Shown: positions 2,024 through 32,321 of the stretch, piece by piece | Numbering within the stretch: position 1 is the stretch's first letter | How the letters are laid out: the number at the start of each line of letters is the position of its first letter | DNA from: an uncultured Clostridia bacterium | Lineage (GTDB): Bacteria > Bacillota > Clostridia > Oscillospirales > Acutalibacteraceae | Length of the DNA stretch: 32,321 nt | Direction: 5' to 3' | Assembly (NCBI GenBank): GCA_947589485.1 | Contig: CANQBK010000020.1 | Location: forward strand, 1-32,321 | Made by a program: the position numbers and the translations under genes | The notes under the pieces: model-generated | The model's database searches: none | What the model saw: the letters and a program-made list of their open reading frames with translations, nothing else | Told to the model about the DNA's origin: nothing

Positions 2024-5000
2024 ATGCAAAGTAAAAATGCTTTTATGAAAAAGGTGCTTGCCGTTGCTTTAACTTCATGTGTAACAATTGGAGGATTGGG
2101 TATAGCTATCCCTAACTCAACTGTATATGCAAAAGATGACTTATCCACAGTTACAGTAGAAGAAGATTCAATGAGCAACGAGTACATTAAACTGGTAACT
2201 GATGAAAATGGCAGATTTGTTCTTGGAACAACTGGAGGTGATCTTTCGAAAGACACAGACAACAACAAAAAGTTGTTATATGGTTTTCCAGATTATGTTG
2301 AAACCTCATTTACCACAATAAGAATAGATGGAAAATCCTATATCTACGGTGAAAATGGACTGGAAACCTCCCCTACCTTTAATGCCGATGAAAAATCGTG
2401 TGTATCGACACAGATTATCAACAATATCGAAATAACACAGACTTTATCTTTTGTAAATAATGTCTCAACTGATAAAGAAGATGTTATGGAAATAAAGTAT
2501 GTCGTAAAAAACAATGACAGCATATCGCATAATATTGGTACGAGAATAATGTTGGACACTATGCTTGGCAACAATGATGATGCTCCATTTCGAGTTCAAG
2601 GTACAGGAAGTGTCACAACGGAAACGGAATTTATGGGAGATGATATTCCGCAATATTGGCAGGCTTTCGATAGTTTGACTGAGCCAACAGTTGTATCTCA
2701 AGGTACATTTGTAAGGGGTAACGATTTAAAACCAGACAAAGTTCAATTTGCACATTGGGGTGCAGGAGGTTGGTTTGGAACCCCGGGCGTAGCTGAAACA
2801 CCGTGGGATTATCAAATTACTGATGGAAAAAGCAACGATGACAGTGCTGTTACGGTTACATGGAATGAAACAGAGTTAACTTCTGGTGAAAGCCGTACAT
2901 ACAAAACCTATTATGGACTTAGTGAACTGACACAGGACAATACTCCGCCTTTGGCTCTTAGTGTTTATAGTGACAATACAGCTGTCCCATATTATAGTTT
3001 GGAAAAGCTAAAATATGTATTTGAGGCTATTTCAATTACAGCTTATATAGAAAACATAAGTGATGTACAAGCTAAGAATGCATATTTGAGAATCGAATTA
3101 CCAGAAGGAATGAATTTGGTTCAAACTCCAGACGGACAAATATATCCTAATTATAATCAAGCAGAGTTCAGATATGAAGTTTTGGATGTGGAAGATATAA
3201 AACAACATAGTTGGACGATTCAAATATCCGATGATATTGTTGCAGGCACATATTCAATTAAGGTAGTATGTGGTGCTGATGATATGGAAGAAAAAACAAT
3301 TCAAAGGTTTATTAACATTCCTGAAAGGGAAAATGTCCAAGATAACAGAATTCGTTGGGGCGAAGAAAAAAAGAATTGGGGAAAGCCAACTGGAGAATGG
3401 ACTGGAATGGATAACCTTGGGTTTATTAATAGTCATCCGTATTTTGATCGTGAGGGTTATGACAAACAAACTTATAGAATATCAGATCATTATTTTAACT
3501 TACTCACTAAGAATATGAGCAATACAGTTTATAATTATTTGCAGAAGCAACGCACTAATGAATGGGACGGTTCGTGTTATGGAATGAGTGATGTTGTTTC
3601 ATTGATGAGAACAGGATACCTTCATCCTTCATACTGGGAAAGCAATGTCTCGATGACTCACTCATTAAGCGATCCGAATAAAAGTGAAAATGTTGAAAGT
3701 TTAATAAGCTTTTACCACCTGTCTCAATATTTACCAGATATACAGGACATAGAGAGTAACTATGATGCTATATGGGAGTCTGATACATTAAAATCAGATG
3801 ATTCATCTGTATTAAAAAATGTTGTATCTGAAGCACAAAGAGTTAAAAATGGTGGCATGCCTGTACAGCTGACTTTTTTCTGGTACAAATATGTACACGA
3901 AAATGAGAAAAATAATCCGATTAAGTTAAGCAATCAAACATCAATTGATGATTACAAAAAGCTTATCGCTGATGATTCATGGATGAATAATAAAGGGATT
4001 ACCAAAGAGTTTAAATCCAAAAATATTATTCTGGAAGACGATTGTGTGTATATATTAATAAACGGTAAGAAATGCAAAGTGGATATGCTTGATGAAGATA
4101 CCTTAATGCTTGATGAAGGTGAAAAGATCAACATTAATGGAGAAGTGTTGAAATTAGTAAACACATATCAAAGAGTTTCTGGTGTTGGTCATGCTGTAAT
4201 AGCTTATGATGTTGATGGTCCCGAAACAGCCGAGAATGGAAAAACGTATCGTTACAGAGTTTCAATATGTGATCCGAATGCATCTAAATGGACATATCTT
4301 TATATATCAGAGGATTATTCTGATTGGTACTATTTGAATATGAGTCTGACTTCCGAAAAAAATGCTACTCATAATGTTGCAACAGATGCAAATGGTGTTG
4401 AACAAAAAGTTATGGTCATGGCAAATTCCGATATAGGAACACTGGACATTGTAAATGCAGAAACTGGAGAAGATAGAAGTGTTTTGAAGAATTATAACCA
4501 AAACTTTATTTCTTCTTATCAAACTTCTGTTGCTGATATAACATCATCAAGCAATAAAAAAGCACAAATAAATGGTTTTTCATCTGAGGGTGATTTAGAC
4601 ATTGTTGTGTTACCTTCATTATCTGAAACAGCAGATGGAACTGGAAATGAATTTAACAGATTTATTCTTCCGGACAATAATGAAGATAGTTATACCATTA
4701 CGCCACAAATGGAAAATGGAATAATTGATTCAACAGGAACATTTATTAATTATATGGTTGGGGCAAAAACATCTTCCGGAAAATCAGCAACATTTGACCC
4801 AAAAGGTAAAGTTTCTCTTGAAGGTAATAACAGTGATTATCAGCTTGAAGCCACTTACAATGATAATTTGAGTAATTTGCCTTGGTTTACGCTTATAGTA
4901 AACGGCAATTCGGCAAATAACTCCTCCCTTGAAGTTGTATCAGATGGTATGATACTTACAAGTGATAATCTAAAAGATGTGAAGACAACAGCCAACAACA

Positions 5001-5419
5001 GAAATAATGAAGTTTCACTGAATTTCAGCACAGATAAAGATTCTGTAAAATTCATGGCTGTTGATAACGGTACTCTTGGTGCGTATATTGATAACGATGG
5101 TGATGGTGTGTATGAAACATTGATATCTGATAGTAACGGTGGCAGTGATGAGCCGAGTGATGATCCAAGTGACGAGCCCAGCGATAACCCAAGCAGTCAG
5201 CCAAGTGATGAACCTAGCAATGACCCAAGCAGTCAGCCAAGTGATGAACCTAGCAATGACCCAAGTGTCGAGCCAAGTAACAACCCAACTATAAATCCAA
5301 ACAATAACTCGCCTGCAACTGGTGATAGTAATCCTGCGATTTTTATGGTTGTTTTGTTTGTAGTTTCATCTTCTGCAATGGTATTCTGTCTTAGGTATCG
5401 TAAAAGAAAAACAAAATGA
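2024..5419 (+). CDS. sortase-anchored surface protein, possible cysteine-peptidase-like domain
   Basis: 1131-residue secreted protein. The N-terminus is a classical signal peptide (KK then a hydrophobic run, cleavage near VYA-KD, about residue 37). The C-terminus is a cell-wall sorting signal: SPATG at about 1096-1100 (an LPXTG variant), a hydrophobic stretch, then RYRKRKTK. Before it lies a PSDEPS/PSNDPS wall-spanning linker. The first half (about 45-430) is beta-rich by composition. A central region contains WDGSCYGMS with Cys518, GHAVIAYDV with His723, and CDPNAS with Asp750/Asn752. That order and spacing resemble a papain-like Cys/His/Asp(Asn) site, which is inference. An EF-hand-like DNDGDGVYE loop precedes the linker. 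No sortase gene is in the window. The protein probably acts at the cell surface as an adhesin or hydrolase. I do not recognise a named family. Confidence 0.75.
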   Translation: MQSKNAFMKKVLAVALTSCVTIGGLGIAIPNSTVYAKDDLSTVTVEEDSMSNEYIKLVTDENGRFVLGTTGGDLSKDTDNNKKLLYGFPDYVETSFTTIRIDGKSYIYGENGLETSPTFNADEKSCVSTQIINNIEITQTLSFVNNVSTDKEDVMEIKYVVKNNDSISHNIGTRIMLDTMLGNNDDAPFRVQGTGSVTTETEFMGDDIPQYWQAFDSLTEPTVVSQGTFVRGNDLKPDKVQFAHWGAGGWFGTPGVAETPWDYQITDGKSNDDSAVTVTWNETELTSGESRTYKTYYGLSELTQDNTPPLALSVYSDNTAVPYYSLEKLKYVFEAISITAYIENISDVQAKNAYLRIELPEGMNLVQTPDGQIYPNYNQAEFRYEVLDVEDIKQHSWTIQISDDIVAGTYSIKVVCGADDMEEKTIQRFINIPERENVQDNRIRWGEEKKNWGKPTGEWTGMDNLGFINSHPYFDREGYDKQTYRISDHYFNLLTKNMSNTVYNYLQKQRTNEWDGSCYGMSDVVSLMRTGYLHPSYWESNVSMTHSLSDPNKSENVESLISFYHLSQYLPDIQDIESNYDAIWESDTLKSDDSSVLKNVVSEAQRVKNGGMPVQLTFFWYKYVHENEKNNPIKLSNQTSIDDYKKLIADDSWMNNKGITKEFKSKNIILEDDCVYILINGKKCKVDMLDEDTLMLDEGEKININGEVLKLVNTYQRVSGVGHAVIAYDVDGPETAENGKTYRYRVSICDPNASKWTYLYISEDYSDWYYLNMSLTSEKNATHNVATDANGVEQKVMVMANSDIGTLDIVNAETGEDRSVLKNYNQNFISSYQTSVADITSSSNKKAQINGFSSEGDLDIVVLPSLSETADGTGNEFNRFILPDNNEDSYTITPQMENGIIDSTGTFINYMVGAKTSSGKSATFDPKGKVSLEGNNSDYQLEATYNDNLSNLPWFTLIVNGNSANNSSLEVVSDGMILTSDNLKDVKTTANNRNNEVSLNFSTDKDSVKFMAVDNGTLGAYIDNDGDGVYETLISDSNGGSDEPSDDPSDEPSDNPSSQPSDEPSNDPSSQPSDEPSNDPSVEPSNNPTINPNNNSPATGDSNPAIFMVVLFVVSSSAMVFCLRYRKRKTK
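5191..5262 (+). repeat. 36-bp direct tandem repeat coding the Pro/Ser/Asp wall linker
   Basis: Two exact 36-bp copies (5191-5226 and 5227-5262) encode 12-residue units of the PS(D/N)(E/D) type inside the surface-protein linker. Degenerate copies flank them. Such tracts can change length by slippage, altering how far the surface domain extends from the wall. Confidence 0.85.
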
Positions 5420-5450
5420 TCTATCAAATAATTGAGAAACCGTAATTCAT

Positions 5451-5494
5451 TCGCAGATATTCACTCTTTTAGGGATTGAGTATCTGCGATTTTA
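5451..5494 (+). terminator. candidate terminator after the surface protein
   Basis: Perfect 9-bp inverted repeat TCGCAGATA (5451-5459) and TATCTGCGA (5481-5489), followed by TTTTA, 31 bp after the stop codon. The loop is long (21 nt) with an extra possible CTC/GAG pairing. The position and T run fit an intrinsic terminator of modest strength. Confidence 0.6.
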
Positions 5495-5501
5495 TGCTAT
5501 A

Positions 5502-5596
5502 ATGAATTTGGATATATTCCCCCGAACGCCGACATCCATATCGAGGTATCGAGCCATGTGGAGATGGTGGTATTTATGTCACGTCAGAATCCTTAA
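5502..5596 (+). pseudogene. relic of an RlmD/RumA-like methyltransferase 3' end (copy A)
   Basis: The frame from 5502 reads L-D-I-F-P-R-T-P. After a frame shift the sequence reads V-S-S-H-V-E-M-V-V-F-M-S-R and stops at 5594. Together these match the C-terminal signature of RlmD/RumA-type 23S rRNA 5-methyluridine methyltransferases, (V)DMFPRTxHVExVVLMSR, as I know it. Nothing of the catalytic part is present. The relic continues with poorly preserved sequence to about 5745, ending in a frame reading VSDIDAEVLKLW. The restriction module starts at 5883. A diverged second copy lies after that module (8644-8919). The match is short, so homology is likely but not certain. Confidence 0.5.
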
Positions 5597-5882
5597 AAAT
5601 AAAAGACTTTTGGTAACATCAAAATGGGACACTCGACCCAAAGTGTGTTTTATCGTAAGAAGAAACATATAAATTATAACTATACAAAACAGGTTGAGTT
5701 AGTGATATTGATGCCGAAGTATTAAAACTATGGATTGGATGTCAGTAAAGCATATACTTTAGAAAATCACATAATAATAATTCATGAGTTTAAATAGTGA
5801 ATCAAAAAAATTAGTATTCAATAATGACCGTTAGATAAATATGGGCAAGTATTGAGAAAACACACGGTTGGAGGAATAAAAC

Positions 5883-7307
5883 ATGGAGCTAAATGAATTT
5901 ATTGATAAGGTCAAGAGTCAAAGTGAAAGGTTCGGATTTTGTTTTGAATCTCAAACAAGAAAAACAAAGAACGCAGTATGGCGGAAAAATATCCATCCAG
6001 AGAAAGAAGAGGACTTCAGGAAGGGGGCTTATTTTGGCCTGGTAAATGCTGATGAAGAACCAACAGGAGCATACAGCGATTTTAGTTTGGTTATCTTTCC
6101 AAATGCTGAGTGTTCCCATTTTGTTATCGCCCTGGGTGTTGGTTCTTTAGGATTCAACAAAGATTTTACTGTTGCCACTTTACCGTGGCTAAGACGATCA
6201 TTTTCTAGGCTCAGAGATGACAAATTCGCAGGAAAACAATTCTTTAAGGTTGATTTTTCTGATATTGAATCACCATCCGCTATTTTAAATTACATGGAAA
6301 ACATAGAAGATTTGAGAGAGGTAATTAACAAATATTCTAAGGTTCTTTCTGCTTGCCAGATTATTGAAGTTGCAAAATACTCTGAAGAAGAAGTATATGG
6401 CATTGTTTGGCAATGGCTAGCAAGCTATGCAGCTTTTAGAGAAGTTGGAAATAATAAGGCGCAAAGAAATGAGATTAGAAAATATTTACCTCGTGCAAAA
6501 GACTTAGACGATTATTCTGAGGGCGCCATTTACAAACAGTTACTTGAGGAGCGATTCATCGTTCTTCAGGGAGCTCCTGGAACGGGCAAAACTTGGACTG
6601 CAAATAAAATTGCTAAACAGCATTTTAGTGGTAGTGAAGGAAAGACCTTTTTCGAGCAGTTTCATGCGGAAACTACATATTCAGATTTTGTTTATGGAAT
6701 TAAGCCAAAAACTGATGGGAAAGGGTTGTTATATGAAGAGCATTATGGGATTCTTATAGATGCAATAGACTATGCAACTTCGGGCAAGCCCACATTATTA
6801 ATTATAGATGAAATTAACAGGGCAAATCTAGCAAGTGTTCTTGGCCCGGTTTTCTATCTGTTTGAGAAAAATGCTGGTGAAAGGTCTAATTATATAAAGA
6901 TCGGAACTAAAAAAATAACGAAATTACCAGATACCCTATATGTAATAGCTACGATGAACACTGCTGACCGCAGTTTGGCGGTCGTTGATTTTGCGCTTAG
7001 ACGAAGATTTTCATGGGTTACATTACGACCTCATGTAATAGAGGCACAAAAAGGGCAAATATTTATGAATAACGAGTTTGAACGTTTTTCAGATTTATTC
7101 AGCAGATACGCTTCTAGTGAAGAGCTAAATTTGCAACCAGGCCAGTCATACTTTATCGCTGAAAACGCGGAAGCATGGAACCAAAGGTTAAGATATGAGT
7201 TGGTTCCTTTGATGAAAGAGTATTTTAATGAAGGATACTTAAAAAATGCAATTTCCGAGTTCAGCGACTACGTCTATGACAAATTAAGGGTTGATTTATA
7301 TGAATAA
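5883..7307 (+). CDS. mcrB: McrB-like AAA+ GTPase subunit of a type IV restriction system
   Basis: 474-residue motor subunit that would translocate DNA by GTP hydrolysis and activate the McrC-like nuclease encoded next. The N-terminal part (about 1-130) looks like the MrcB N-terminal/DUF3578 domain, which is thought to recognise DNA. The AAA+ core has Walker A GAPGTGKT at 230-237, Walker B LLIIDEIN with Asp309-Glu310, the McrB signature MNTADRS at 358-364 and an arginine-rich RRRF at 373-376. The start is fixed by TTGGAGGAA just upstream of the ATG at 5883. The 3' end overlaps the next gene by 8 bp, so the two form one operon with likely coupled translation. McrB proteins with this signature use GTP. 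The target modification cannot be told from sequence. Confidence 0.9.
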   Translation: MELNEFIDKVKSQSERFGFCFESQTRKTKNAVWRKNIHPEKEEDFRKGAYFGLVNADEEPTGAYSDFSLVIFPNAECSHFVIALGVGSLGFNKDFTVATLPWLRRSFSRLRDDKFAGKQFFKVDFSDIESPSAILNYMENIEDLREVINKYSKVLSACQIIEVAKYSEEEVYGIVWQWLASYAAFREVGNNKAQRNEIRKYLPRAKDLDDYSEGAIYKQLLEERFIVLQGAPGTGKTWTANKIAKQHFSGSEGKTFFEQFHAETTYSDFVYGIKPKTDGKGLLYEEHYGILIDAIDYATSGKPTLLIIDEINRANLASVLGPVFYLFEKNAGERSNYIKIGTKKITKLPDTLYVIATMNTADRSLAVVDFALRRRFSWVTLRPHVIEAQKGQIFMNNEFERFSDLFSRYASSEELNLQPGQSYFIAENAEAWNQRLRYELVPLMKEYFNEGYLKNAISEFSDYVYDKLRVDLYE

Positions 7308-9920: not shown

Positions 9921-10601
9921 GGGGCTGTCGCAGTAAGAAAAGCGGCAGCCCTGGTATTTTTGCATAAAAGAAAATAAATATATAAAATGAATGTAAAATA
10001 CCCTGTGAAAAATGATAAAAACAAAAAACTTGTACGACAAAAAGACGTAAACGAATTACGTCAATTTTTTTAGTGTACAATTTTTGAATTTCAAAATTCA
10101 AGCAATAGTTTTCAAATCAAACAGATAATTTCCCGTCCTATCAGATTGAATTTTTCTATGAAGCTTGTTAATGTTATGAGCCATGGCTAAAAGAATGCTT
10201 TCGGCAGTTGCATTTTGCTTTCCTCTGCTAAGATACCTACGGAATCCCATGTCCTGTTTAATATTACCAAAGGAACCTTCTACCTGAATGCTTCGGTTCA
10301 TTCGCAGCTGACAACCTTCTTCACTGATAATTCTTTTCAGATCTTCTTCTCTGCACTGCATAAACTTTTTAGAAACCTGAAGAACTTTGTTTCTTTTTTC
10401 AAATGGTATTCTATTTCAAATATTCTATTTCAAACGGAATTTTTAGTTGCTTTTCTATTCCGTTTGTCGTATAATCTTTTTTGTAAATAGTTGTGTTTGA
10501 TCATACTTCTATTTTACACCAACAGTCGGATTTTTCATAGTCCGGCTGTTATTTTTTTGCATATTTTTTTGGGCTGCCGCTTTTCTTACTGCGACAGCCC
10601 C
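9921..10601 (-). mobile_element. internally deleted IS1182-family element with perfect 31-bp ends
   Basis: A 681-bp unit bounded by perfect 31-bp inverted repeats (9921-9951 and 10571-10601, GGGGCTGTCGCAG... and its complement). Each end is also partly self-complementary (GGGCTGTCGC/GCGGCAGCCC) and can fold as a hairpin. Inside, on the minus strand, are only the start and the end of an IS1182-type transposase, so the element could move only if a full-length relative supplied the enzyme. No convincing target duplication was seen at the borders. Confidence 0.8.
10098..10504 (-). pseudogene. IS1182-family transposase with internal deletion
   Basis: Read on the minus strand, an ATG at 10504 starts an N-terminal piece (IKHNYLQKRLYDKRNRK) that stops early. 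After a frame change comes KIPFEIEYL, then the frame jumps to the family's C-terminal end: QCREEDLKRIISEEG, VEGSFGNIKQDMGFRRYLSR and ESILLAMAHNINKLHRKI, down to the stop at 10098. The whole catalytic middle is missing. The C-terminal GSFGxxKxxMGFRRYL block with its Glu is diagnostic of IS1182 transposases. A 14-bp tandem duplication (TTTGAAATAGAATA as read on the minus strand) lies close to the deletion point. It is not functional. Confidence 0.8.
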
Positions 10602-13023: not shown

Positions 13024-13500
13024 GGAGGCTGTCGCACAAGCGTAAAAAAACGCAGTGCGGCAGCCCTGATATTTTTGCATAAAAGAAAATAAATATATAG
13101 AAAGAATGAAAAATACCCTGTGAAAAATGATAAAAACAAAAAATTTGTATGACAAAAAGACGTAAACGAATTACGTCAATTTTTTTAGTGCACAATTTTT
13201 GAATTTCAAAATTCAAGCAATAGTTTTCAAATCAAACAGATAATTTCCCATCCTATCAGATTGAATTTTTCTATGAAGCTTGTTAATGTTATGAGCCATG
13301 GCTAAAAGAATGCTTTCGGCAGTTGCATTTTGCTTTCCTCTGCTAAGATACCTACGGAATCCCATGTCCTGTTTAATATTACCAAAGGAACCTTCTACCT
13401 GAATGCTTCGGTTCATTCGCAGCTGACAACCTTCTTCACTGATAATTCTTTTCAAATCTTCTTCTCTGCACTGCATAAACTTTTTAGAAACCTGAGAACT
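13024..13500 (-). mobile_element. IS1182-family remnant, one end only
   Basis: Second copy of the IS1182 sequence. A terminal hairpin-like end (GGCTGTCGCAC...GTGCGGCAGCC, about 13026-13065) is followed by sequence nearly identical to 9951-10385, including the transposase C-terminus. The other IS end is missing. At about 13492-13500 the sequence changes abruptly into an IS200/IS605 tnpA gene, through the shared bases AGTTCT. Confidence 0.75.
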
Positions 13501-13758
13501 TTTCCCCTTTAAATACCCCATTACTTGTGCTACACTATATTTGGACAGTATTGCAATAAGTATGTAGATATAATCCGGGTATGCTTCTGATTCTATTATA
13601 TCCATTCCCTTTTGTTCACACAGTTTTCTCAATATCCTTCCTATATCAATTTTTATCTTATTATAAATTACCATTCTCCTATACTTTGGTGCAAACACCA
13701 CATAATATTTGCAATTTCATTTGGAATGTGCTAAACTGCTTATATCGTCTCTTTTCAT
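13213..13758 (-). pseudogene. chimeric frame: dead IS200/IS605 TnpA fused to IS1182 transposase tail
   Basis: On the minus strand GAGGAGG precedes an ATG at 13758 that opens an IS200/IS605 TnpA gene: SLAHSK, a TGA where the family has Trp, then NCKYYVVFAPKYRR. It continues through KYSVAQVMGYLKGKSS. The catalytic HUH motif (normally D-H-I-H) reads D-Y-I-Y, so both metal-binding His are lost. After KGKSS the frame runs without a break into the IS1182 transposase C-terminus (QVSKKFMQCREEDLKR...) and stops at 13213. The catalytic Tyr helix of TnpA is gone. The join retains an open 162-codon frame from 13701. Neither half can be an active transposase. Confidence 0.8.
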
Positions 13759-23378: not shown

Positions 23379-23618
23379 ATGAAAAAAGAAAATGCTTTTG
23401 ACGGTCTTTTGCAGTTTTATATGCAGGCAACCGAAAAGTATAAACATTATCCGCCTGTATGTGAAAAGTTAAAACGCCGATTACCCGACAGAGAAAATTT
23501 TTTTAAAAAATTTTTAAAATTTACTATCCAAACGATGTTTTTATTAGTCTATATAAATGACCGGGCAGGAAACGATTTTTATTTTAACCTAAACGGTCAA
23601 GAAGTCCCCTACCTCTAA
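23379..23618 (+). pseudogene. hypothetical gene fragment cut by the IS605-type element
   Basis: A 79-codon frame from an ATG without ribosome-binding site. The protein is basic with a short hydrophobic stretch (FTIQTMFLLVYI). Its last about 12 codons (from NLNGQEV) lie inside the left end of the mobile element, so the natural C-terminus is missing. No family recognised. It could be the start of a gene destroyed by insertion. Confidence 0.3.
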
Positions 23619-23713
23619 GGCGGTGTAGTGAATTGCGCGCCGGCCGCAAGGCTGACTTTTTATTGACTTACGATTCTGTTTATGTTATCTTTGTGATAAA
23701 GAGGTGAAAAGCA

Positions 23714-23848
23714 ATGAATAAAGTCTATAAATTTAGTATATATCCGAATAAAGAGCAAAGCACATTGATTGAAAAGACATTCGGCTGTGTCAAATTTATC
23801 TACAATATATTGAAATCAAAACAAGAACCGTTTGATACACGGGGTTAG
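23714..23848 (+). pseudogene. tnpB N-terminal fragment
   Basis: AAAGAGGTGAAAAGCA provides a ribosome-binding site for the ATG at 23714. The 44 codons (KVYKFSIYPNKEQ, TLIEKTFGCVKFIYN) match the helix-turn-helix start of TnpB/OrfB proteins of IS200/IS605 elements. The frame then passes the deletion point and stops at 23846. The RuvC nuclease core and zinc finger are gone, so no RNA-guided nuclease is made. Confidence 0.75.
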
Positions 23849-23940
23849 CTCGCTTATGCTTAGTACATTGGTACTATCGAACGAGAACCAGGCCTGACGG
23901 AGTTGAGAAACTCCAACCCCTTTAGGTGGGGAGTATGTCA
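23849..23940 (+). ncRNA. omegaRNA-like right-end structure
   Basis: Just before the element's right end the sequence can form CTCG...CGAG (23849-23852/23882-23885) enclosing AGTAC-ATTG-GTACT, then GGAGTT-GAGA-AACTCC (23899-23914), then CCCC-TTTA-GGTGGGG, ending at AGTATGTCA. TnpB-associated guide (omega) RNAs are encoded at exactly this place, with the guide drawn from the DNA beyond the right end (here CTTGATAGGC...). Its function is inferred. With tnpB deleted, it could act only with a TnpB supplied from elsewhere. Confidence 0.45.
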
Positions 23941-24010
23941 CTTGATAGGCTACTCGTTTTGTTTATCCGTAATTTTAGTAAAATAAAAAACGTAAGTCAG
24001 GAGAATTGCA

Positions 24011-24378
24011 ATGAACAAAGATTTTATACCGCCGGTAAAAGCCCATGCTTTTTGAGAGTATTTCAGATGAGGCTATGTATGAGATAAAGGACGAGCAAAA
24101 TTCCGACCTTGTACCCCCACGAGTTTGTTGACAAAGAAGAAACAAGTCGTTTGATAATGGAGATAATAAATAAACTCTCGGAGGAAAAGCGGCTTGTAAT
24201 ACTGATGTATTACTATCAGGAAATGTCAACTACAGAAATTGCCGAGACACTTGAAATGCCGCTTACGGTTTTGACCTCTATTTTTTCAAAGGCGGCGCAA
24301 GGCGTAAATGCACCCGCGTTTTCGGCAATATCTCAGTCGGTTTTGGGAGCTCCGACAGCAGTAGGAGCAACAGCATGA
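24011..24378 (+). pseudogene. decayed sigma-70 factor gene, once fused to the downstream LRR protein
   Basis: CAGGAGAATTGCA precedes an ATG at 24011 (NKDFIPPVKAHAF, TGA at 24053). Sigma-like sequence goes on in a second frame (SISDEAMYEIKDEQNSD) and a third from about 24109: PHEFVDKEETSRLIMEII, then region-4-like KLSEEKRLVILMYYYQEM and TTEIAETLEMPLTVLTSI, the usual -35-recognition helix-turn-helix, though the last helix has drifted. A Ser/Ala-rich tail ends at a TGA at 24376. That TGA is in frame with the first LRR gene, and the 21 codons between it and ATG 24442 are open. So sigma factor, Ala/Thr linker, TM segment and LRR domain formed one reading frame apart from this stop and the two upstream shifts. 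Confidence 0.65.
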
Positions 24379-24441
24379 ACAACCGCGTTAAACGCGGCAA
24401 GAACGGCGGGAACTACCGCCGCAAAAACAGGAGGAATAAAT

Positions 24442-25788
24442 ATGATCTCTAAAACAACAATGGCAAAAGTAATAGCAGCGGTTTTAGCCGTTGCGGTAGT
24501 TGGGGGCGGTTTGACCGCCACCGGTTGTAATAATCAAAACAATGACAACTATTCACAAACAGTAAATGACAAAGACGAATCGAGCTATAACGACTTTGAA
24601 GACAGCGAAAACTATTCTTCAATTTTTTCAGAAGAGAGCAAAATGTCCGAAATACCCGAAAGCTCTGATGAAGACAACGGAAACAAATCTTCAAACTTTT
24701 CAGAGGAAAGCAAAATGTCCAAAATACCCGAAAGCTCTGATGAAGACAACGGAGGCAATTCTTCCGACATTTCAGAGGAAAGCGAAATACCCGAAAATCC
24801 TGCTTCGGATTTTGAATATACCGCTGAAAATGGCGATGTGACAATTACTAAATATATAGGCAGCAACGAACAGGTACGCATACCGAAAAAAATAGAGGGC
24901 AAGCCTGTTACGAAAATCGGAAAGCAGGCCTTTAAATTATGCACAAGATTAACAAGAATAGATATTCCAAACAGCGTTACTGAAATCGGAGAGGAGGCCT
25001 TTCAATTCTGTATAGATTTAACAATAATAGAAGTTCCCGACAGCGTTACAGAAATTGGAGAAGGGGCATTTTCACACTGCGAAGGGTTAAAAAGCATAAA
25101 AATTTCAAACGCCGTTACGAAAATCGAAAATAATGCCTTTAGAGAATGCGGAAAATTAACAAGCATAAAAATTCCAAACAGCGTTACTGAAATTGGAGAA
25201 TATGCCTTTGACAGCTGCAAAAGCTTAACAAGCATAGAAATTCCCGACGGCGTTACGAAAATTGGAGTATTCACCTTTGCCGCCTGCAAAAACTTAACAA
25301 GCGTAGATATTCCAAACACCGTTACTGAAATCGGTGCTCATGCCTTTGCCAACTGCAACAGCTTAACAAGTGTAGATATTCCCGACAGCGTTACTGAAAT
25401 CGGTAATTCTGCCTTTCACGGTTGCGAAAGCTTAACAAGCATAAAAATTCCAAACAGCGTTACGAAAATTGGAGAGTATACCATTGCCGCCTGCAAAAGC
25501 TTAACAAGCATAGAAATTCCAAACGGCGTTACCGAAATCGGTGATAATGCCTTTTCCAACTGCGACAGCTTAACAAGTGTAGATATTCCAAACAGCGTTA
25601 CGAAAATTGGAGAGTATGCCTTTTCCCACTGCGACAAATTAACAAGCGTAGATATTCCAAGCAGCGTTACTGAAATTGACAAGTACGCATTTAGTGAATG
25701 CTCAAGCGACCTTATAATTAAAGGCAAAGCAGGCTCTGCAGCAGAAACATGCGCGAACGAGGGCGGCTATACATTTAAGACCAATTAA
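24442..25788 (+). CDS. BspA-like leucine-rich repeat (LRR_5) surface protein 1
   Basis: 448-residue protein. AGGAGGAA precedes the ATG. The N-terminus is a signal peptide with lipobox-like TATGC (Cys about 29), so probably a lipoprotein. An acidic Ser/Glu linker with three copies of a SEESKMSxIPESSDEDNG unit follows (residues 58-115). From about residue 125, YTAENGDVTITKYIG opens the repeat domain: about 12 units of 23 residues of the type LTSVDIPNSVTEIGEYAFSNCKS. A capping segment (DLIIKGKAGSAAETCANEGG) ends the protein. BspA-type LRR proteins bind host or polymer ligands at the cell surface. First of five tandem paralogues. Its last 305 bp are identical to those of the next gene. Confidence 0.88.
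   Translation: MISKTTMAKVIAAVLAVAVVGGGLTATGCNNQNNDNYSQTVNDKDESSYNDFEDSENYSSIFSEESKMSEIPESSDEDNGNKSSNFSEESKMSKIPESSDEDNGGNSSDISEESEIPENPASDFEYTAENGDVTITKYIGSNEQVRIPKKIEGKPVTKIGKQAFKLCTRLTRIDIPNSVTEIGEEAFQFCIDLTIIEVPDSVTEIGEGAFSHCEGLKSIKISNAVTKIENNAFRECGKLTSIKIPNSVTEIGEYAFDSCKSLTSIEIPDGVTKIGVFTFAACKNLTSVDIPNTVTEIGAHAFANCNSLTSVDIPDSVTEIGNSAFHGCESLTSIKIPNSVTKIGEYTIAACKSLTSIEIPNGVTEIGDNAFSNCDSLTSVDIPNSVTKIGEYAFSHCDKLTSVDIPSSVTEIDKYAFSECSSDLIIKGKAGSAAETCANEGGYTFKTN
24616..24798 (+). repeat. 72-bp tandem repeats coding the acidic linker of LRR protein 1
   Basis: Units start at 24616, 24688 and 24760 (the third shortened). Each encodes a Ser/Glu/Asp-rich 24-residue spacer. The paralogues downstream have only one unit, so this gene expanded its stalk or the others lost it. 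Confidence 0.8.
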
Positions 25789-25865: not shown

Positions 25866-27869
25866 ATGACATCCAAAACAACAACGGCAAAGGTAATAGC
25901 GGCGGTAGTTTGCTTCGGTGTGACCGCCGCAGTTATAATAAACAAAAACAACAGCAACAATTCACAAACAATATATAAGAAAAATAATAAAGATAAAGCG
26001 GACAATAACGGCTCTAAAAACAGCGGAAACTATTCTTCAAACCTTTCAGAGGAAAGCGAATTGCCCGAAAGTCCTGCCTTGGATTTTGAATATACCGTTG
26101 AAAACAATGAGGTGACAATTACTAAATATATAGGCAGCGACACACAGGTACGCATACCCGAAAAAATAGAGAGCAAGTCTGTTACTGAAATCGGCAATGA
26201 GGCCTTTTGCTACTGCAACAACTTAAAAAACGTAACTATTCCAAGCAGCGTTACGAGAATTGGCAATTATGCCTTTGACATCTGCAAAAGATTAACCGAC
26301 ATAAATGTAAGCATTAATAATCCGTTATATTCCTCGCAGGACGGCGTCCTTTTTAACAAAGACAAAACAACTTTAATTTGCTATCCCACAGGAAAAGAAA
26401 ACACATTATACACTATTCACAACAGCGTTACTTACATCAGCGATTATTCCTTTTCCAACTGCACAAGCTTAACAAGCGTAGATATTCCAAACAGTGTTAC
26501 TGAAATCGGTGATAAAGCCTTTTACAACTGCTACAGCTTAACAAGCGTAACTATTCCCGACGGCGTTACTAAAATCGGAGAAAAGGCCTTTGACTACTGC
26601 AAAAGCTTAACAAGTGTAACTATTCCCACCGGCGTTACGAAAATCGGAAAGCAGGCCTTTTACAGATGCAAAAGCTTAACAAGCATAGATATTCCAAACA
26701 ACGTTACTGAAATTGGTATTGCTGCCTTTGCCATTTGCACAAGCTTAACCGACATAAATGTAAGCAGTAATAATCCGTTGTATTCCTCGCAGGACGGTGT
26801 CCTTTTTAACAAAGACAAAACAACTTTAATTTGCTATCCCGCAGGAAAAGAAAACACATTATACACTATTCCCAACAGCGTTACTAAAATTGGAGAATAT
26901 GCCTTTGATAGATGCTCAGGCTTAATAAGCATAGAAATTCCCGACAGCGTTATGAAAATTGGAGGATATGCCTTTTGCTACTGCAAAAGATTAACAAGCG
27001 TAGATATTCCAAACAGCGTTACTGAAATTGGCGATTATGCCTTTTGCTACTGCAAAAGATTAACAAGCATAGAAATTCCCGACAGCGTTACGAAAATTGG
27101 AGGATATGCCTTTTTCTACTGCGACAGCTTAAAAAGCATAACTATTCCAAGCAGCGTTACGAGAATTGGCAATTATGCCTTTGCCGTCTGCAAAAGCTTA
27201 ACCTACATAAATGTAAGCAGTAACAATCCGTTGTATTCCTCGCAAGACGGCGTCCTTTTTAACAAAGACAAAACAACTTTAATTTGCTATCCCGCAGGAA
27301 AAGAAAACACATTATACATTATTCCCAACAGCGTTACGGAAATCGGTAATGATGCCTTTTCTGAATGTTCAAGCCTAACAAGCGTAACTATTCCCGACGG
27401 CATTACTAAAATCGGCAATGATGCCTTTTCTGAATGTTCAAGCTTAACAAGCGTAACTATTCCCGACAGCATTACGGAAATCGGAGATGATGCCTTTTTC
27501 AGCTGTAAAAGCTTAACAAGCGTAACTATTCCCGACGGCGTTACTCAAATCGGTAATGGTGCCTTTTCTGAATGCTCAAGCTTAACAAGCATAGAAATTC
27601 CAAACGGCGTTACCGAAATCGGTGATAATGCCTTTTCCAACTGCGACAGCTTAACAAGTGTAGATATTCCAAACAGCGTTACGAAAATTGGAGAGTATGC
27701 CTTTTCCCACTGCGACAAATTAACAAGCGTAGATATTCCAAGCAGCGTTACTGAAATTGACAAGTACGCATTTAGTGAATGCTCAAGCGACCTTATAATT
27801 AAAGGCAAAGCAGGCTCTGCAGCAGAAACATGCGCGAACGAGGGCGGCTATACATTTAAGACCAATTAA
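25866..27869 (+). CDS. BspA-like LRR surface protein 2
   Basis: 667 residues from the ATG at 25866 (an in-frame GTG at 25800 is ignored because it belongs to the spacer linker). The N-terminal hydrophobic run AKVIAAVVCFGVTAAVII lacks both a lipobox and an obvious cleavage site and is followed by Asn/Lys-rich sequence, so it is probably a signal anchor rather than a lipoprotein signal as in paralogues 1 and 5. The extracellular part has about 22 LRR_5 units of 23 residues, punctuated by three 'island' inserts of the type NPLYSSQDGVLFNKDKTTL-ICYPAGKENTLY typical of BspA proteins. The C-terminal cap is identical to protein 1. Likely a surface ligand-binding protein. Confidence 0.88.
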   Translation: MTSKTTTAKVIAAVVCFGVTAAVIINKNNSNNSQTIYKKNNKDKADNNGSKNSGNYSSNLSEESELPESPALDFEYTVENNEVTITKYIGSDTQVRIPEKIESKSVTEIGNEAFCYCNNLKNVTIPSSVTRIGNYAFDICKRLTDINVSINNPLYSSQDGVLFNKDKTTLICYPTGKENTLYTIHNSVTYISDYSFSNCTSLTSVDIPNSVTEIGDKAFYNCYSLTSVTIPDGVTKIGEKAFDYCKSLTSVTIPTGVTKIGKQAFYRCKSLTSIDIPNNVTEIGIAAFAICTSLTDINVSSNNPLYSSQDGVLFNKDKTTLICYPAGKENTLYTIPNSVTKIGEYAFDRCSGLISIEIPDSVMKIGGYAFCYCKRLTSVDIPNSVTEIGDYAFCYCKRLTSIEIPDSVTKIGGYAFFYCDSLKSITIPSSVTRIGNYAFAVCKSLTYINVSSNNPLYSSQDGVLFNKDKTTLICYPAGKENTLYIIPNSVTEIGNDAFSECSSLTSVTIPDGITKIGNDAFSECSSLTSVTIPDSITEIGDDAFFSCKSLTSVTIPDGVTQIGNGAFSECSSLTSIEIPNGVTEIGDNAFSNCDSLTSVDIPNSVTKIGEYAFSHCDKLTSVDIPSSVTEIDKYAFSECSSDLIIKGKAGSAAETCANEGGYTFKTN

Positions 27870-27946: not shown

Positions 27947-29635
27947 ATGATATCCAAAACAACAATGGCAACGGTAATAGCAGCGGTAGTTTGCTTCGGT
28001 GTGACCGCCGCAGTTATAATAAACAAAAACAATAGCAACAATTCACAAACAATATATAAGAAAAATAATAAAGATAAAGCGGACAATAACGGCTCTAAAG
28101 ACAACGGAGGCAATTCTTCCGACATTTCAGAGGAAAGCGAAATGCTCGAAAGCCCTGCTTCGGATTTTGAATATACCGTTGAAAACGGCAAGGTGACAAT
28201 TACCAAATATATAGGCAGCGACACACAGGTACGCATACCCGAAAAAATAGAGGGCAAGTCTGTTACTAAAATCGGAGAGCACGCCTTTTACAACTGCTAC
28301 AACTTAACAAGCGTAGATATTCCAAACAGCGTTACGAAAATCGGAAAGAATGCCTTTGACAGTTGCACAAACTTAACAAGCATAGATATTCCAAACGGCG
28401 TCACTAAAATCGGTAATGAGGTCTTTTCCGAATGCTCAAGCTTAACAAGCGTATATATTCCCGACAGCGTTAATGAAATTGGTATTGATGCCTTTGACAT
28501 CTGCAAAAGATTAACCGACATAAATGTAAGCAGTGATAATCCGTTATATTCCTCGCAGGACGGCGTCCTTTTTAACAAAGACAAAACAACTTTAATTTGC
28601 TATCCCGCAGGAAAAGAAAACACATCATATAGTATTCCCAACAGCGTTACGGAAATCGGTAATGAAGCCTTTTCTGAATGCTCAAGCCTAACAAGCGTAA
28701 CTATTCCCGCCGGCGTTACGGAAATCGGCAATGATACCTTTTGCTACTGCAACAACTTAAAAAGCGTAACTATTCCAAGCAGCATTACGAGAATTGGCAA
28801 TTATGCCTTTGACAGCTGCACAAGCTTAACAAGCATAGATATTCCAAACAGCATTACGAGAATTGGCAATTATGCCTTTGACAGCTGCACAAGCTTAACA
28901 AGCGTAGAAATTCCCGACAGCGTTACTGAATTTGGTATTGCTGCCTTTGCCATTTGCAAAAGATTAACCGACATAAATGTAAGCAGTAATAATCCGTTGT
29001 TTTCCTCGCAGGAAGGCGTCCTTTTTAACAAAGACAAAACAACTTTAATTTGCTATCCCGCAGGAAAAGAAAACACATCATACACTATTCCCAACAGCGT
29101 TACTGAAATCGGTATTGCCGCCTTTAACTGCTGTACAAGCTTAACAAGCGTAATTATTCCTGACGGCATTACTAAAATCGGCAATAATGCCTTTTCTTAC
29201 TGCACAAGTTTAACAAGCGTAACTATTCCCGACAGCGTTACTGAAATCGGACATGATGCCTTTTTCAGCTGTAAAAGCTTAACAAGCGTAACTATTCCCG
29301 ACGGTGTTACTAAAATCGGAGAATATGCCTTTGATAGATGCTCAGGCTTAATAAGCATAACTATTCCAAGCAGCGTTACTGAAATCGGTATTGCCGCCTT
29401 TAACTGCTGTACAAGCTTAACAAGCGTAGATATTCCAAACAGCGTCACGAAAATCGAAAAAAAGGCCTTTCAAAAGTGCACAAGCTTAACAAGCGTAAAT
29501 ATTCCCGACAGCGTTACGAAAATCGGCAAATACGCATTTAATGCATGTTCAAGCGGCCTTATAATTAAAGGCAAAGCGGGTTCTGCCGCAGAAGCATACG
29601 CGAACGATAACGGTTTTAAATTTGTGACCGATTAA
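27947..29635 (+). CDS. BspA-like LRR surface protein 3
   Basis: 562 residues from the ATG at 27947 behind AGGAGGAA. Same signal-anchor type N-terminus as proteins 2 and 4 (VIAAVVCFGVTAAVII), one copy of the acidic DNGGNSSDISEESEM stalk, about 18 LRR_5 units and two NPL(Y/F)SSQ(D/E)GVLFNKD islands. The C-terminal cap is a different allele from proteins 1 and 2 (AEAYANDNGFKFVTD). Long stretches are identical to protein 4, but two repeat units (46 residues) present in protein 4 are absent here. Surface location and ligand binding are family knowledge. Confidence 0.87.
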   Translation: MISKTTMATVIAAVVCFGVTAAVIINKNNSNNSQTIYKKNNKDKADNNGSKDNGGNSSDISEESEMLESPASDFEYTVENGKVTITKYIGSDTQVRIPEKIEGKSVTKIGEHAFYNCYNLTSVDIPNSVTKIGKNAFDSCTNLTSIDIPNGVTKIGNEVFSECSSLTSVYIPDSVNEIGIDAFDICKRLTDINVSSDNPLYSSQDGVLFNKDKTTLICYPAGKENTSYSIPNSVTEIGNEAFSECSSLTSVTIPAGVTEIGNDTFCYCNNLKSVTIPSSITRIGNYAFDSCTSLTSIDIPNSITRIGNYAFDSCTSLTSVEIPDSVTEFGIAAFAICKRLTDINVSSNNPLFSSQEGVLFNKDKTTLICYPAGKENTSYTIPNSVTEIGIAAFNCCTSLTSVIIPDGITKIGNNAFSYCTSLTSVTIPDSVTEIGHDAFFSCKSLTSVTIPDGVTKIGEYAFDRCSGLISITIPSSVTEIGIAAFNCCTSLTSVDIPNSVTKIEKKAFQKCTSLTSVNIPDSVTKIGKYAFNACSSGLIIKGKAGSAAEAYANDNGFKFVTD

Positions 29636-29712: not shown

Positions 29713-31716
29713 ATGACATCCAAAACAACAACGGCAAAGGTAATAGCGGCGGTAGTTTGCTTCGGTGTGACCGCCGCAGTTATAATAAACAAAAACAACA
29801 GCAACAATTCACAAACAATATATAAGAAAAATAATAAAGATAAAGCGAACAATAACGGCTCTAAAGACAACGGAGGCAATTCTTCCGACATTTCAGAGGA
29901 AAGCAAAATGCCCGAAAGCCCTGCCTCGGATTTTGAATATACCGTTGAAAACGGTGAGGTGACAATTACTAAATATATAGGCAGCGTCACACAGGTACGC
30001 ATACCCGAAAAAATTGAGGGCAAGCCTGTTACGGAAATCGGAGAGCATGCCTTTTCCTTCTGCAAAGAATTGACAAGAATAGAAATTTCAAACAGCGTTA
30101 CTGAAATCGGTGAGTATGCCTTTTTCAGCTGCGAAAGTTTAACAAGCGTAACTATTCTCGCCGGCGTTACGGAAATCGGTAATTATGTCTTTTCCAACTG
30201 CGACAAATTAGCAAACGTAGATATTCCAAACGGCGTCACTAAAATCGGTAATGAGGCCTTTTCTGAATGCACAAGCTTAACAAGCGTAGATATTCCCGAC
30301 AGCGTTACTGAAATTGGTATTGATGCCTTTGACATCTGCAAAAGATTAACCGACATAAATGTAAGCAGTGATAATCCGTTATATTCCTCGCAGGACGGCG
30401 TCCTTTTTAACAAAGACAAAACAACTTTAATTTGCTATCCCGCAGGAAAAGAAAACACATCATATAGTATTCCCAACAGCGTTACGGAAATCGGTAATGA
30501 AGCCTTTTCTGAATGCTCAAGCCTAACAAGCGTAACTATTCCCGCCGGCGTTACGGAAATCGGCAATGAGGCCTTTTGCTACTGCAACAACTTAAAAAGC
30601 GTAACTATTTCAAGCAGCGTTACGAGAATTGGCAATTATGCCTTTACCTTCTGCACAAACTTAACAAGCATAAATATTCCAAATGGCATTACTGAAATCG
30701 GCAATGATACCTTTTGCTACTGCAACAACTTAAAAAGCGTAACTATTCCAAGCAGCATTACGAGAATTGGCAATTATGCCTTTGACAGCTGCACAAGCTT
30801 AACAAGCATAGATATTCCAAACAGCATTACGAGAATTGGCAATTATGCCTTTGACAGCTGCACAAGCTTAACAAGCGTAGAAATTCCCGACAGCGTTACT
30901 GAATTTGGTATTGCTGCCTTTGCCATTTGCAAAAGATTAACCGACATAAATGTAAGCAGTAATAATCCGTTGTTTTCCTCGCAGGAAGGCGTCCTTTTTA
31001 ACAAAGACAAAACAACTTTAATTTGCTATCCCGCAGGAAAAGAAAACACATCATACACTATTCCCAACAGCGTTACTGAAATCGGTAATGATGCCTTTTC
31101 TGAATGTTCAAACTTAACAAGCGTAACTATTCCCGCCGGCGTTACGAAAATCGGTAATGATGCCTTTTCTGAATGCTCAAGCTTAACAAGCGTATATATT
31201 CCCGACAGCGTTAATGAAATCGGCGATTATGCCTTTTTCAGCTGCACAAACTTAACAAGCATAGATATTCAAAACGGCATTACTGAAATCGGCAATGAGA
31301 CCTTTTGCTACTGCAACAACTTAAAAAGCGTAACTATTCCAAGCAGTGTTACGAGAATTGGCAATTATGCCTTTGCCGTCTGCAAAAGCTTAACAAACAT
31401 AAATGTAAACAGTGATAATCCGTTGTTTTGCTCACAGGACGGCGTCCTTTTTAACAAAGACAAAACAACTTTAATTTGCTATCCCGCAGGAAAAGAAAAC
31501 ACATTATACAGTATTCCAAACAGCCTTACTGAAATCGGTAATTGTGCATTTTTGAGCTGCAAAAATTTAACAAGCGTAACTATTCCCGACAGCGTTACGA
31601 AAATCGGCAAGTACGCATTTAATCAATGCTCAAGCGACCTTATAATTAAAGGCAAGACAGGCTCTGCCGCAGAAACATACGCTAATGATAACGGCTTTAA
31701 ATTTATGACCGATTAA
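29713..31716 (+). CDS. BspA-like LRR surface protein 4
   Basis: 667 residues, the same length as protein 2 but with a different repeat order. The start at ATG 29713 is set by AGGAGGAA; the in-frame GTG at 29647 lies in the spacer. Signal-anchor N-terminus, DNGGNSSDISEESKM stalk, about 22 LRR_5 units and three islands (one reading NPLFCSQDGVLFNKD). The cap resembles protein 3 (AETYANDNGFKFMTD). Blocks around 30326-30570 and 30704-31080 match 28491-28730 and 28731-29107 of gene 3 almost exactly, with 138 bp (two units) extra between them. It is a mosaic made by recombination among the paralogues. Confidence 0.88.
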   Translation: MTSKTTTAKVIAAVVCFGVTAAVIINKNNSNNSQTIYKKNNKDKANNNGSKDNGGNSSDISEESKMPESPASDFEYTVENGEVTITKYIGSVTQVRIPEKIEGKPVTEIGEHAFSFCKELTRIEISNSVTEIGEYAFFSCESLTSVTILAGVTEIGNYVFSNCDKLANVDIPNGVTKIGNEAFSECTSLTSVDIPDSVTEIGIDAFDICKRLTDINVSSDNPLYSSQDGVLFNKDKTTLICYPAGKENTSYSIPNSVTEIGNEAFSECSSLTSVTIPAGVTEIGNEAFCYCNNLKSVTISSSVTRIGNYAFTFCTNLTSINIPNGITEIGNDTFCYCNNLKSVTIPSSITRIGNYAFDSCTSLTSIDIPNSITRIGNYAFDSCTSLTSVEIPDSVTEFGIAAFAICKRLTDINVSSNNPLFSSQEGVLFNKDKTTLICYPAGKENTSYTIPNSVTEIGNDAFSECSNLTSVTIPAGVTKIGNDAFSECSSLTSVYIPDSVNEIGDYAFFSCTNLTSIDIQNGITEIGNETFCYCNNLKSVTIPSSVTRIGNYAFAVCKSLTNINVNSDNPLFCSQDGVLFNKDKTTLICYPAGKENTLYSIPNSLTEIGNCAFLSCKNLTSVTIPDSVTKIGKYAFNQCSSDLIIKGKTGSAAETYANDNGFKFMTD

Positions 31717-31793: not shown

Positions 31794-32321
31794 ATGTTAT
31801 CCAAAACAACAATGGCAAAGTTAACAGCAGCGGTTTTAGCCGCTGCCATAGTTGGGGTCGGCGTAACCGCCACCGGTTGTAATAATCAAAACAACAGCAA
31901 TTCTTCCAACCTTTCAAAGGAAAGCAAAATACCCGAAAGCCCTGCTTCGGATTTTAAATATACTGTTGAAAACGATAAGGTTATCATAACAGACTACATA
32001 GGCAGTGACACAGAGGTTAGCATACCAAAAAAAATAGAGGGCAAGTCTGTTACGGAAATCGGAGAGCGAAGCTTTCTCTGCTGCCTTGAGTTAACAAGCG
32101 TAACTATTCCCGCCGGCATTACTGAAATCGGCGAGAATGCCTTTTTCCACTGCGACAGATTAAAAAGCGTAGATATTCCAAACAGTGTTACTAAAATCGG
32201 TGATGGTGCCTTTTCCTACTGCGACAAATTAACAAGCGTAGATATTCCAAACGGCGTTACTAAAATCGGTAATGAGGCCTTTTCTGCATGCTCAAGCTTA
32301 ACAAGCGTAGATATTCCAAAC
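31794..32321 (+). CDS. BspA-like LRR surface protein 5, cut by window end
   Basis: The first 176 codons of a fifth paralogue, with the frame open to the last base. AGGAGGAA precedes the ATG. Its N-terminus (AAVLAAAIVGVGVTATGCNN) has the lipobox-like TATGC of protein 1, unlike proteins 2-4. The stalk is short (NSSNLSKESKIPESP). The strand YTVENDKVIITDYIG opens the domain, and about four LRR_5 units are visible. Protein 5 and its spacer resemble the first member of the array more than its direct neighbour. Confidence 0.85.
   Translation, partial: MLSKTTMAKLTAAVLAAAIVGVGVTATGCNNQNNSNSSNLSKESKIPESPASDFKYTVENDKVIITDYIGSDTEVSIPKKIEGKSVTEIGERSFLCCLELTSVTIPAGITEIGENAFFHCDRLKSVDIPNSVTKIGDGAFSYCDKLTSVDIPNGVTKIGNEAFSACSSLTSVDIPN

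Follow-up and report, generated by a model that had tools for sequence, protein, structure and literature searches.

Remains of a Probable Membrane-Tethered Sigma Factor Gene at the Head of a Leucine-Rich Repeat Surface-Gene Array in an Uncultured Clostridia Bacterium

Can a surface protein and a transcription factor be the two ends of one polypeptide? This question is raised by a contig of an uncultured Clostridia bacterium (family Acutalibacteraceae, CANQBK010000020.1; the whole stretch of 32,321 nucleotides analyzed here is called the window), in which the remnant of a sigma-70 factor gene is followed, in the same reading frame, by a gene for a BspA-type leucine-rich repeat (LRR) surface protein. 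We consider it probable that these are the remains of a single gene for a membrane-tethered extracytoplasmic function (ECF) sigma factor, composed of sigma2, sigma4, a linker, a transmembrane segment and BspA-type LRRs, which heads a tandem array of LRR surface genes. Comparison with an orthologous locus shows that the sigma half was destroyed by deletions, a frameshift, a stop codon and an insertion in the leader, and that the LRR half keeps its ribosome-binding site and an open frame.

The relic and its lesions

The initial annotation had described both parts as one broken fusion gene, split by a single stop codon. Three-frame translation and the list of open reading frames (ORFs) indeed place them in one shared frame, which runs from TTG 24109 through the region-4 remnant, a Ser/Ala-rich tail, the TGA at 24376-24378 and 21 open codons to the ATG at 24442. 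The two frame changes described 5' of the region-4 remnant were seen as well, with KPMLFESISDEAMYEIKDEQNSDLV lying out of frame relative to both the start at ATG 24011 and the remnant. On the 89-aa relic, Pfam gave a Sigma70_r4_2 match (2.7e-9) that covers profile positions 2-40 of 54 only, and no match to Sigma70_r2. With region 2 unmatched and region 4 cut at position 40, the window copy does not amount to an ECF sigma domain. The 448-aa LRR ORF has its own start, because a Shine-Dalgarno sequence, GGAGG at 24430-24434, lies 7 nt 5' of ATG 24442. Read-through or recoding of the TGA is therefore not favored: the sigma half is without region 2, and the LRR ORF carries its own Shine-Dalgarno sequence and ATG. 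By our own arithmetic the chance of an in-frame join with 21 open codons is about 1/3 x 0.36. An in-frame run of 21 open codons is no rarity in random sequence; the join by itself therefore says little, and intact homologues have to decide.

Such a homologue is present in G100, a genome from another genus of the same family. Its orthologous locus L142 contains a 765-aa sigma-linker-transmembrane-LRR ORF (4506-6803), which matches Sigma70_r2, Sigma70_r4_2 and LRR_5 and is followed, as in the window, by two stand-alone transmembrane-LRR ORFs. Lesions excepted, the window blocks are collinear with L142 at 82-98% DNA identity. The parts of the window copy are the following:

23523..23554, + strand: ECF-type promoter-like site of type A, ACTATCC-N16-AGTCTATAT, in a block collinear with G100
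23588..23941, + strand: remnant of an IS605-type element in the 5' leader, 354 bp, absent in G100, where L142 4419 and 4420 are contiguous
24011..24043, + strand: remaining start of the sigma gene, ATG and about 11 codons; 24001-24043 is 97.7% identical to L142 4496-4538
24037..24043, + strand: region-2 deletion, with its junction in a short direct repeat; the 7 bases stand in two alignments, one ending at L142 4538, the other starting at 4768
24044..24256, + strand: relic of the linker between regions 2 and 4 and of most of region 4, with internal frame changes (Sigma70_r4_2, 2.7e-9)
24257..24266, + strand: junction of the region-4-end deletion at a 10-bp direct repeat, again shared by two alignments, one up to L142 4996, the other from 5089
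24267..24375, + strand: post-region-4 segment (SKAAQGVNAPAFSAISQSVLGA...) and start of the Ala-rich linker; 24257-24371 is 88.7% identical to L142 5089-5203
24376..24378, + strand: in-frame TGA (three-frame translation)
24379..24441, + strand: 21 open codons including the Shine-Dalgarno sequence GGAGG, with homology both to stand-alone LRR leaders and to the fused linker of G100 (3' half)

The block between the two deletions (24037-24266 against L142 4768-4996) is 95.2% identical at the DNA level, and its frame change corresponds to a one-base length difference relative to G100. A segment comparable to SKAAQGVNAPAFSAISQSVLGA... follows the sigma domain in other family members too. The G100 linker lacks approximately 33 nt that surround the TGA in the window and that partly resemble the leaders of the stand-alone genes. 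The claim that the gene was split by a single in-frame TGA did not survive this comparison: region 2 and the end of region 4 are lost, a frameshift is present and the leader contains the IS605-type remnant. The TGA is thus one lesion among several, and we reject the single stop as an explanation.

The IS605-type remnant gave an HTH_OrfB_IS605 match (3.7e-14) on 23714-23845; it keeps only the first part of an OrfB-like gene and is located between the promoter site and the start of the sigma relic. The DNA of the relic is in parts 95-98% identical to the L142 gene of a genome assigned to another genus, which suggests either a recent transfer or a recent break.

Intact fused genes in the same genome and in relatives

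The initial annotation had postulated an ancestral protein with a cytoplasmic sigma factor, a linker, a transmembrane helix and an extracellular LRR domain. Intact versions of this layout were found both in the same genome and, when related genomes were searched for sigma, transmembrane and LRR_5 parts in one ORF, for instance as the 765-aa ORF of L142. Searched for Sigma70_r4, the genome of the window yielded 16 matches; the open frames around five of these are 674-824 aa long. One contig (L009) holds three tandem fused genes of 699, 819 and 796 aa; a fourth encodes 672 aa (L010) and a fifth approximately 645-664 aa (L011). All five proteins contain Sigma70_r2 and r4, after which come a low-complexity linker and then a hydrophobic segment of the transmembrane type. 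LRR_5 was matched by Pfam in two, the 699- and the 819-aa protein. Relatives of the predicted ancestor therefore still exist in the genome that carries the relic.

The sigma domains of these relatives are clearly of the ECF kind, with TIGR02937 scores of 76.6-87.0 bits (cut-off 42.9) in the five fused proteins scanned. Among solved structures they come closest to SigW of Bacillus subtilis, which was deposited together with RsiW, by sequence (E 4e-43) as well as by fold (Foldseek 8.8e-7, TM-score 0.68 on the target; TM-score, template modelling score). An AlphaFold model of residues 1-285 of L013 contains sigma2, sigma4 and an extra helix at 198-210. The TM-scores on the target are 0.59-0.70 for the anti-sigma-bound SigW, CnrH and SigK and approximately 0.3-0.4 for sigmas bound to RNA polymerase, but the anti-sigma complexes sigmaE-RseA and AlgU-MucA reach only 0.45-0.49. 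The closeness of the model to anti-sigma-bound sigmas is at most a hint of self-inhibition.

The fused proteins form a larger family. When named genomes were searched with an alignment of the five fused N-terminal parts as the query, the top loci among the best 80 of 350 confirmed ones came from metagenome-assembled genomes labelled uncultured Clostridia, Ruminococcus, Oscillospiraceae and Lachnospiraceae, several of them, judged by their names, from rabbit, goat or rumen samples. Within the window's own family, 218 of 300 genomes matched at 1e-12, many via plain sigmas. Those at E <= 2.1e-41, the best 46, are without exception in open frames of 413-1303 aa, and they are distributed over 32 of the 300 genomes, our own included. 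In 391 genomes of the class, those of the listed matches at or below 1.5e-43 have frames of 396-824 aa, judged by frame length alone, and come from families f1, f6, f31, f46, f53, f54 and f68. The weaker ones listed are mostly plain sigmas of approximately 200 aa.

What follows the sigma domain is variable. The fetched loci gave 89 non-redundant ORFs of at least 300 aa, from which L057 was dropped, as its sigma domain stands at the ORF end; the structure alignment omitted two of 56 rows. The mean Kyte-Doolittle value over 19 residues behind the linker is at least 1.5 in 85 of the 88 remaining tails and lower in three, a count made without a null set. Sixteen Pfam families were matched on the 88 tails, among them LRR_5 (26 tails), Big_2 (2), A2M (2), DUF3298 (1), CAP (1) and, in one tail each, Zn_ribbon_CSL and Zn_ribbon_Brz; the anti-sigma zinc finger PF13490 had no match in this set. 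DUF3298 did not reappear among the ten tails that were rescanned. Judged by hydropathy, the sigma domain of the intact protein would lie inside and the ectodomain outside the membrane. A tree of 114 sigma domains has a split (support 0.966) that gathers all 87 fused ones on one side, together with one of the 27 unfused ones. The label fused or unfused changes twice on this tree, compared with at least 20 times in 200 shuffles.

Promoter sites and candidate regulon

Upstream of family genes we recognized a common layout of the ECF type (type A): an AT-rich run, ACTATCC, 16 bases and YGTMTATAT. CGTC is typical of ECF -10 elements. The promoter core occurs in 19 of 90 upstream regions, while mononucleotide shuffles gave a mean of 0.055 and a maximum of 1. 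All 15 genes whose sigma is at least 59.6% identical to A819 carry a type A site. Type B, with a 15-base spacer, precedes all five genes with a sigma at least 65% identical to B699, and a type E site was found at two of two genes. In the window the site at 23523-23554 is the sole type A match, with 0 mismatches to a pattern that has N at the first -10 base; dinucleotide shuffles of the window contained a mean of 0.10 matches, and 9 of 100 had one. Across the 2.39-Mb own genome three type A sites have one mismatch, and they lie at the relic (23523-23554) and at two fused genes. Types B and E have one site each within two mismatches, in both cases with 0 mismatches, upstream of the fused genes from which the patterns derive.

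With up to one mismatch, type A gave 20 rows, of which 18 are distinct, in seven other genome handles (G265 and G685 appear to be one genome); the reversed control gave 3. Nine of these 18 sites were those of fused genes that we had already encountered. The nine new ones are found before a fused sigma start (one), at a contig edge (one) and before other genes (seven); the longest frames behind these seven encode five LRR_5 proteins of the BspA type, which by eye have signal-peptide-like starts, and two proteins with a C39-like Peptidase_C39_2 domain. The latter two (L146 386-1816 and L151 434-1807) have an N-terminal hydrophobic stretch and stand behind the fused-sigma promoter. A conserved small leader ORF of 39-46 aa (VWVIKYYLYL...KIYIEEVKSENLF...) was observed at L009 (upstream of 5468, - strand), L013, L014, L016, L017 and L019. 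It ends at, or within a few bases of, the fused sigma start, so translational coupling is suggested.

A number of points weigh against our reading and are collected here. The promoter patterns, the classes and the identity cut-offs were all written after inspection, and the genes within a subfamily are related. Just below the type A cut-off the next sigma (59.56%) is without a site, and two of the eight rows at 45-59.6% have one; type B is absent from all four listed B-like rows below 65%, and no recognized promoter site precedes the two D-type genes. With up to two mismatches the own genome contains 11 type A matches compared with 13 of the reversed control, and the two such 2-mismatch matches that were inspected fall inside other ORFs. 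A broader type A pattern gave five sites compared with one in the control, with the two added sites inside other ORFs. For types B and E the reversed controls gave 2 and 3 matches within two mismatches, so that only the position of the single site counts. G100 has no type A site at up to one mismatch. The seven new genes are interdependent: two LRR genes share an identical site, five have similar signal peptides and the C39 pair looks orthologous. The structural model is limited to residues 1-285, with a mean pLDDT (predicted local distance difference test) of 69.7 and values below 50 in the linker and transmembrane part. The tree sample was recruited by similarity to the fused proteins, and the tree therefore supports but does not prove a single fusion. 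Finally, the LRR half of copy 1 may have a stand-alone origin, as discussed below.

The enrichment of LRR genes behind the new sites is still striking, because the 102, 24 and 55 LRR_5 stretches of G683, G684 and G686 amount, by rough arithmetic, to at most a few per cent of genes. We conclude that an ECF-type promoter variant appears to be associated with the sigma subfamily, upstream of many family genes and, in relatives, also of LRR and C39-like genes.

The array, alternative explanations and known systems

Behind the relic the window contains five LRR copies in tandem:

24442..25788, + strand: copy 1, membrane anchor and BspA-type LRR, 448 aa; LRR_5 7.9e-103, lipobox-like TATGC after the hydrophobic stretch
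25866..27869, + strand: copy 2, stand-alone transmembrane-LRR gene, ORF open from GTG 25800; LRR_5 2.8e-175
27947..29635, + strand: copy 3, stand-alone transmembrane-LRR gene, 562 aa (ORF list, translation)
29713..31716, + strand: copy 4, stand-alone transmembrane-LRR gene (ORF list, translation)
31794..32321, + strand: copy 5, stand-alone LRR gene whose frame is open to the window end; lipobox-like TATGC

Copies 1 and 2 are BspA-type, with LRR_5 repeats behind an export or anchor segment (the anchor recognized by eye and hydropathy). Each of the five copies is preceded by the same linker-like stretch, which ends in GGAGGAATAAATATG and whose homologue in G100, read in the same frame, is the 3' half of the fused linker. 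Since the stand-alone leaders match the fused linker in this way, the array is probably the product of duplication of a fused gene whose linker was longer. One stand-alone copy of G100 has a frame-breaking extra A in this stretch, and the leader of the stand-alone copies therefore need not be coding. The 21 codons, interpreted as a linker in the initial annotation, are thus homologous in frame to the G100 fused linker, but the same stretch also serves as the leader of stand-alone LRR copies. Elsewhere in the window, the ORFs 10098-10361 and 13213-13701 (- strand) have a common 87-residue C-terminal stretch (MQCREEDLKRIISEEG...FDLKTIA) with one residue different, and by eye they look like transposase copies.

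Because the 21 codons also lead stand-alone copies and the LRR half of copy 1 seems stand-alone-like, the joint itself may be a recombination scar. The sigma relic would then have been joined to a stand-alone LRR leader and body, and nothing would be left of the original fused transmembrane-LRR half. The common reading frame would in part be a coincidence, and there would be no need to regard the TGA as a nonsense mutation that closed a formerly open linker. The approximately 33 nt around the TGA that are absent from the G100 linker and partly resemble stand-alone leaders point in this direction, as do the first 48 residues of copy 1, of which 34 agree with the G100 stand-alone proteins and 29 with the G100 fused protein. 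The motifs TATGC (window copies 1 and 5) and TAAGC (two G100 stand-alone copies), which we take to be lipobox-like, fit as well, since no such Cys is present at this place in the G100 fused protein. Against this, window copies 2-4 lack the Cys and carry fused-type residues at the anchor end, gene conversion could explain the Cys of copy 1, the leaders of the stand-alone copies show the in-frame homology to the fused linker described above, and copy 1 keeps linker-type sequence up to 24371. We regard the two histories of the joint as about evenly balanced. An assembly or sequencing error in an intact gene is highly improbable in comparison: the genome is in 160 contigs, but two deletions bordered by direct repeats, an IS remnant, a frameshift and a stop within one gene are hard to produce via read errors.

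How an intact gene would work allows further alternatives. It may yield two proteins, a full form and a sigma-less form from an internal Shine-Dalgarno sequence and ATG before the transmembrane segment, with the window copy surviving via this internal start. Such a start lies at most 25 codons before the transmembrane segment in 11 of 85 fused ORFs, compared with 47 of 1636 in-frame 30-codon windows elsewhere, and four window copies share the same GGAGGAATAAATATG. Synonymous shuffles, however, averaged 6.4 and went up to 12, which leaves codon choice with little to add to what the amino acids dictate; the +1 frame elsewhere has 70 of 1636 such windows, the ATG or the Shine-Dalgarno sequence is missing in some close relatives, and an internal start may be a mere scar of fusion or fission. 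We therefore consider two products possible but doubtful. The internal start as a codon-level signal was discarded as weak, the observed 11 being within the range of the synonymous shuffles. Still less probable, in our opinion, is that the intact protein acts uncleaved, with a sigma that is active or conformationally exposed while tethered, like membrane-bound activators. With its long low-complexity linker the sigma might contact DNA while anchored in the membrane, but SigW is activated through proteolysis. Proteolysis also activates IutY (PMC8999054), and the same is proposed for ECF52 (PMC5826349). Two M50-type matches were found in the own genome; as the M50 family matches all 14 control genomes, this is no evidence either way on cleavage.

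A membrane-tethered sigma factor gene as the source of the relic would fit the following mechanism. The intact protein would sit in the membrane with a cytoplasmic sigma domain and an extracellular ectodomain. A ligand or an envelope change could then lead to cleavage near the transmembrane helix by regulated intramembrane proteolysis, or to another kind of release, and the freed sigma would transcribe its own operon together with surface-protein genes. Positive feedback would remodel the cell surface. In the window the switch would be dead, with the surface genes alone remaining. The initial annotation had surmised such sensing and release; the promoter that seems tied to the sigma subfamily and to mark surface-protein genes lends this indirect support. 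We can go one step further and propose, with divided confidence, that gut Clostridia have a large family of single-protein transmembrane sigmas with exchangeable ectodomains (LRR, immunoglobulin-like, DUF3298 and others) and subfamily-specific promoters. They would be self-feeding switches that co-activate secreted LRR proteins of the same kind and match sensor and surface repertoire, in arrays that decay and refill by duplication. If this is true, one polypeptide would be receptor, tether and transcription factor in these bacteria, with promoters readable from the genome. It would also provide a handle on the control of the BspA-type LRR surface proteins, which are numerous in these genomes (70 LRR_5 stretches in the own genome). 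The relic is dead and its value lies in the family to which it points; the window would show the loss of such a switch while its surface genes persist.

One of the closest published layouts is ECF52. SCO4117 of Streptomyces coelicolor combines an ECF sigma, a transmembrane region, a low-complexity extracellular stretch and a binding domain in one polypeptide; autoregulation is suggested and proteolytic release proposed, a model that truncation experiments with SCO4117 support, and the ectodomain of one ortholog is set apart by a stop codon, in the authors' view possibly a sequence error (PMC5826349). The fused family shares the transmembrane region, the low-complexity stretch and the extracellular domain (topology by hydropathy). 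ECF52, described as exclusive to Actinobacteria, carries both a zinc-finger domain and a carbohydrate-binding module (PMC5826349), whereas neither PF13490 nor a carbohydrate-binding module is among the 16 families matched by our 88 tails. The ectodomains here are of the LRR_5 or another kind, and the top hosts with a name (best 80 of 350 loci) are Clostridia. IutY (ECF243) of Pseudomonas putida, for which sigma release by intramembrane proteolysis was shown, and other ECF-anti-sigma fusions likewise join a sigma to a membrane-bound regulatory part (PMC8999054). Unlike the proteins described here with their variable ectodomain, IutY is part of a Gram-negative cell-surface signalling system for iron-siderophores.

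The initial annotation knew of no system with this exact sigma-LRR layout. The general layout has precedents in ECF52 and IutY; a protein with the exact order of sigma, transmembrane segment and LRR was not found in the literature search. A clostridial variant with LRR or other exchangeable ectodomains and without PF13490 was likewise not found described in the literature covered, from which the ECF reclassification paper was absent, and the fused proteins may already belong to a numbered ECF group. The one-protein transmembrane sigma would thus be a known kind, of which the clostridial LRR variant appears as an undescribed form. Compared with SigW-RsiW of Bacillus subtilis, the best solved match of the fused sigma domain by sequence and fold, the difference is that SigW is a free sigma whose anti-sigma factor is a second protein. 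SigI/RsgI pairs sense carbohydrates and link a surface domain across the membrane to sigma control, but they consist of two proteins; the RsgI family had no match in the 88 tails (Pfam), a search that did not extend to neighboring genes. BspA-type surface proteins, finally, share the LRR_5 ectodomain, which Pfam matched on 26 of the 88 tails as well as on copies 1 and 2 of the window; to our knowledge such proteins are not normally joined to a transcription factor.

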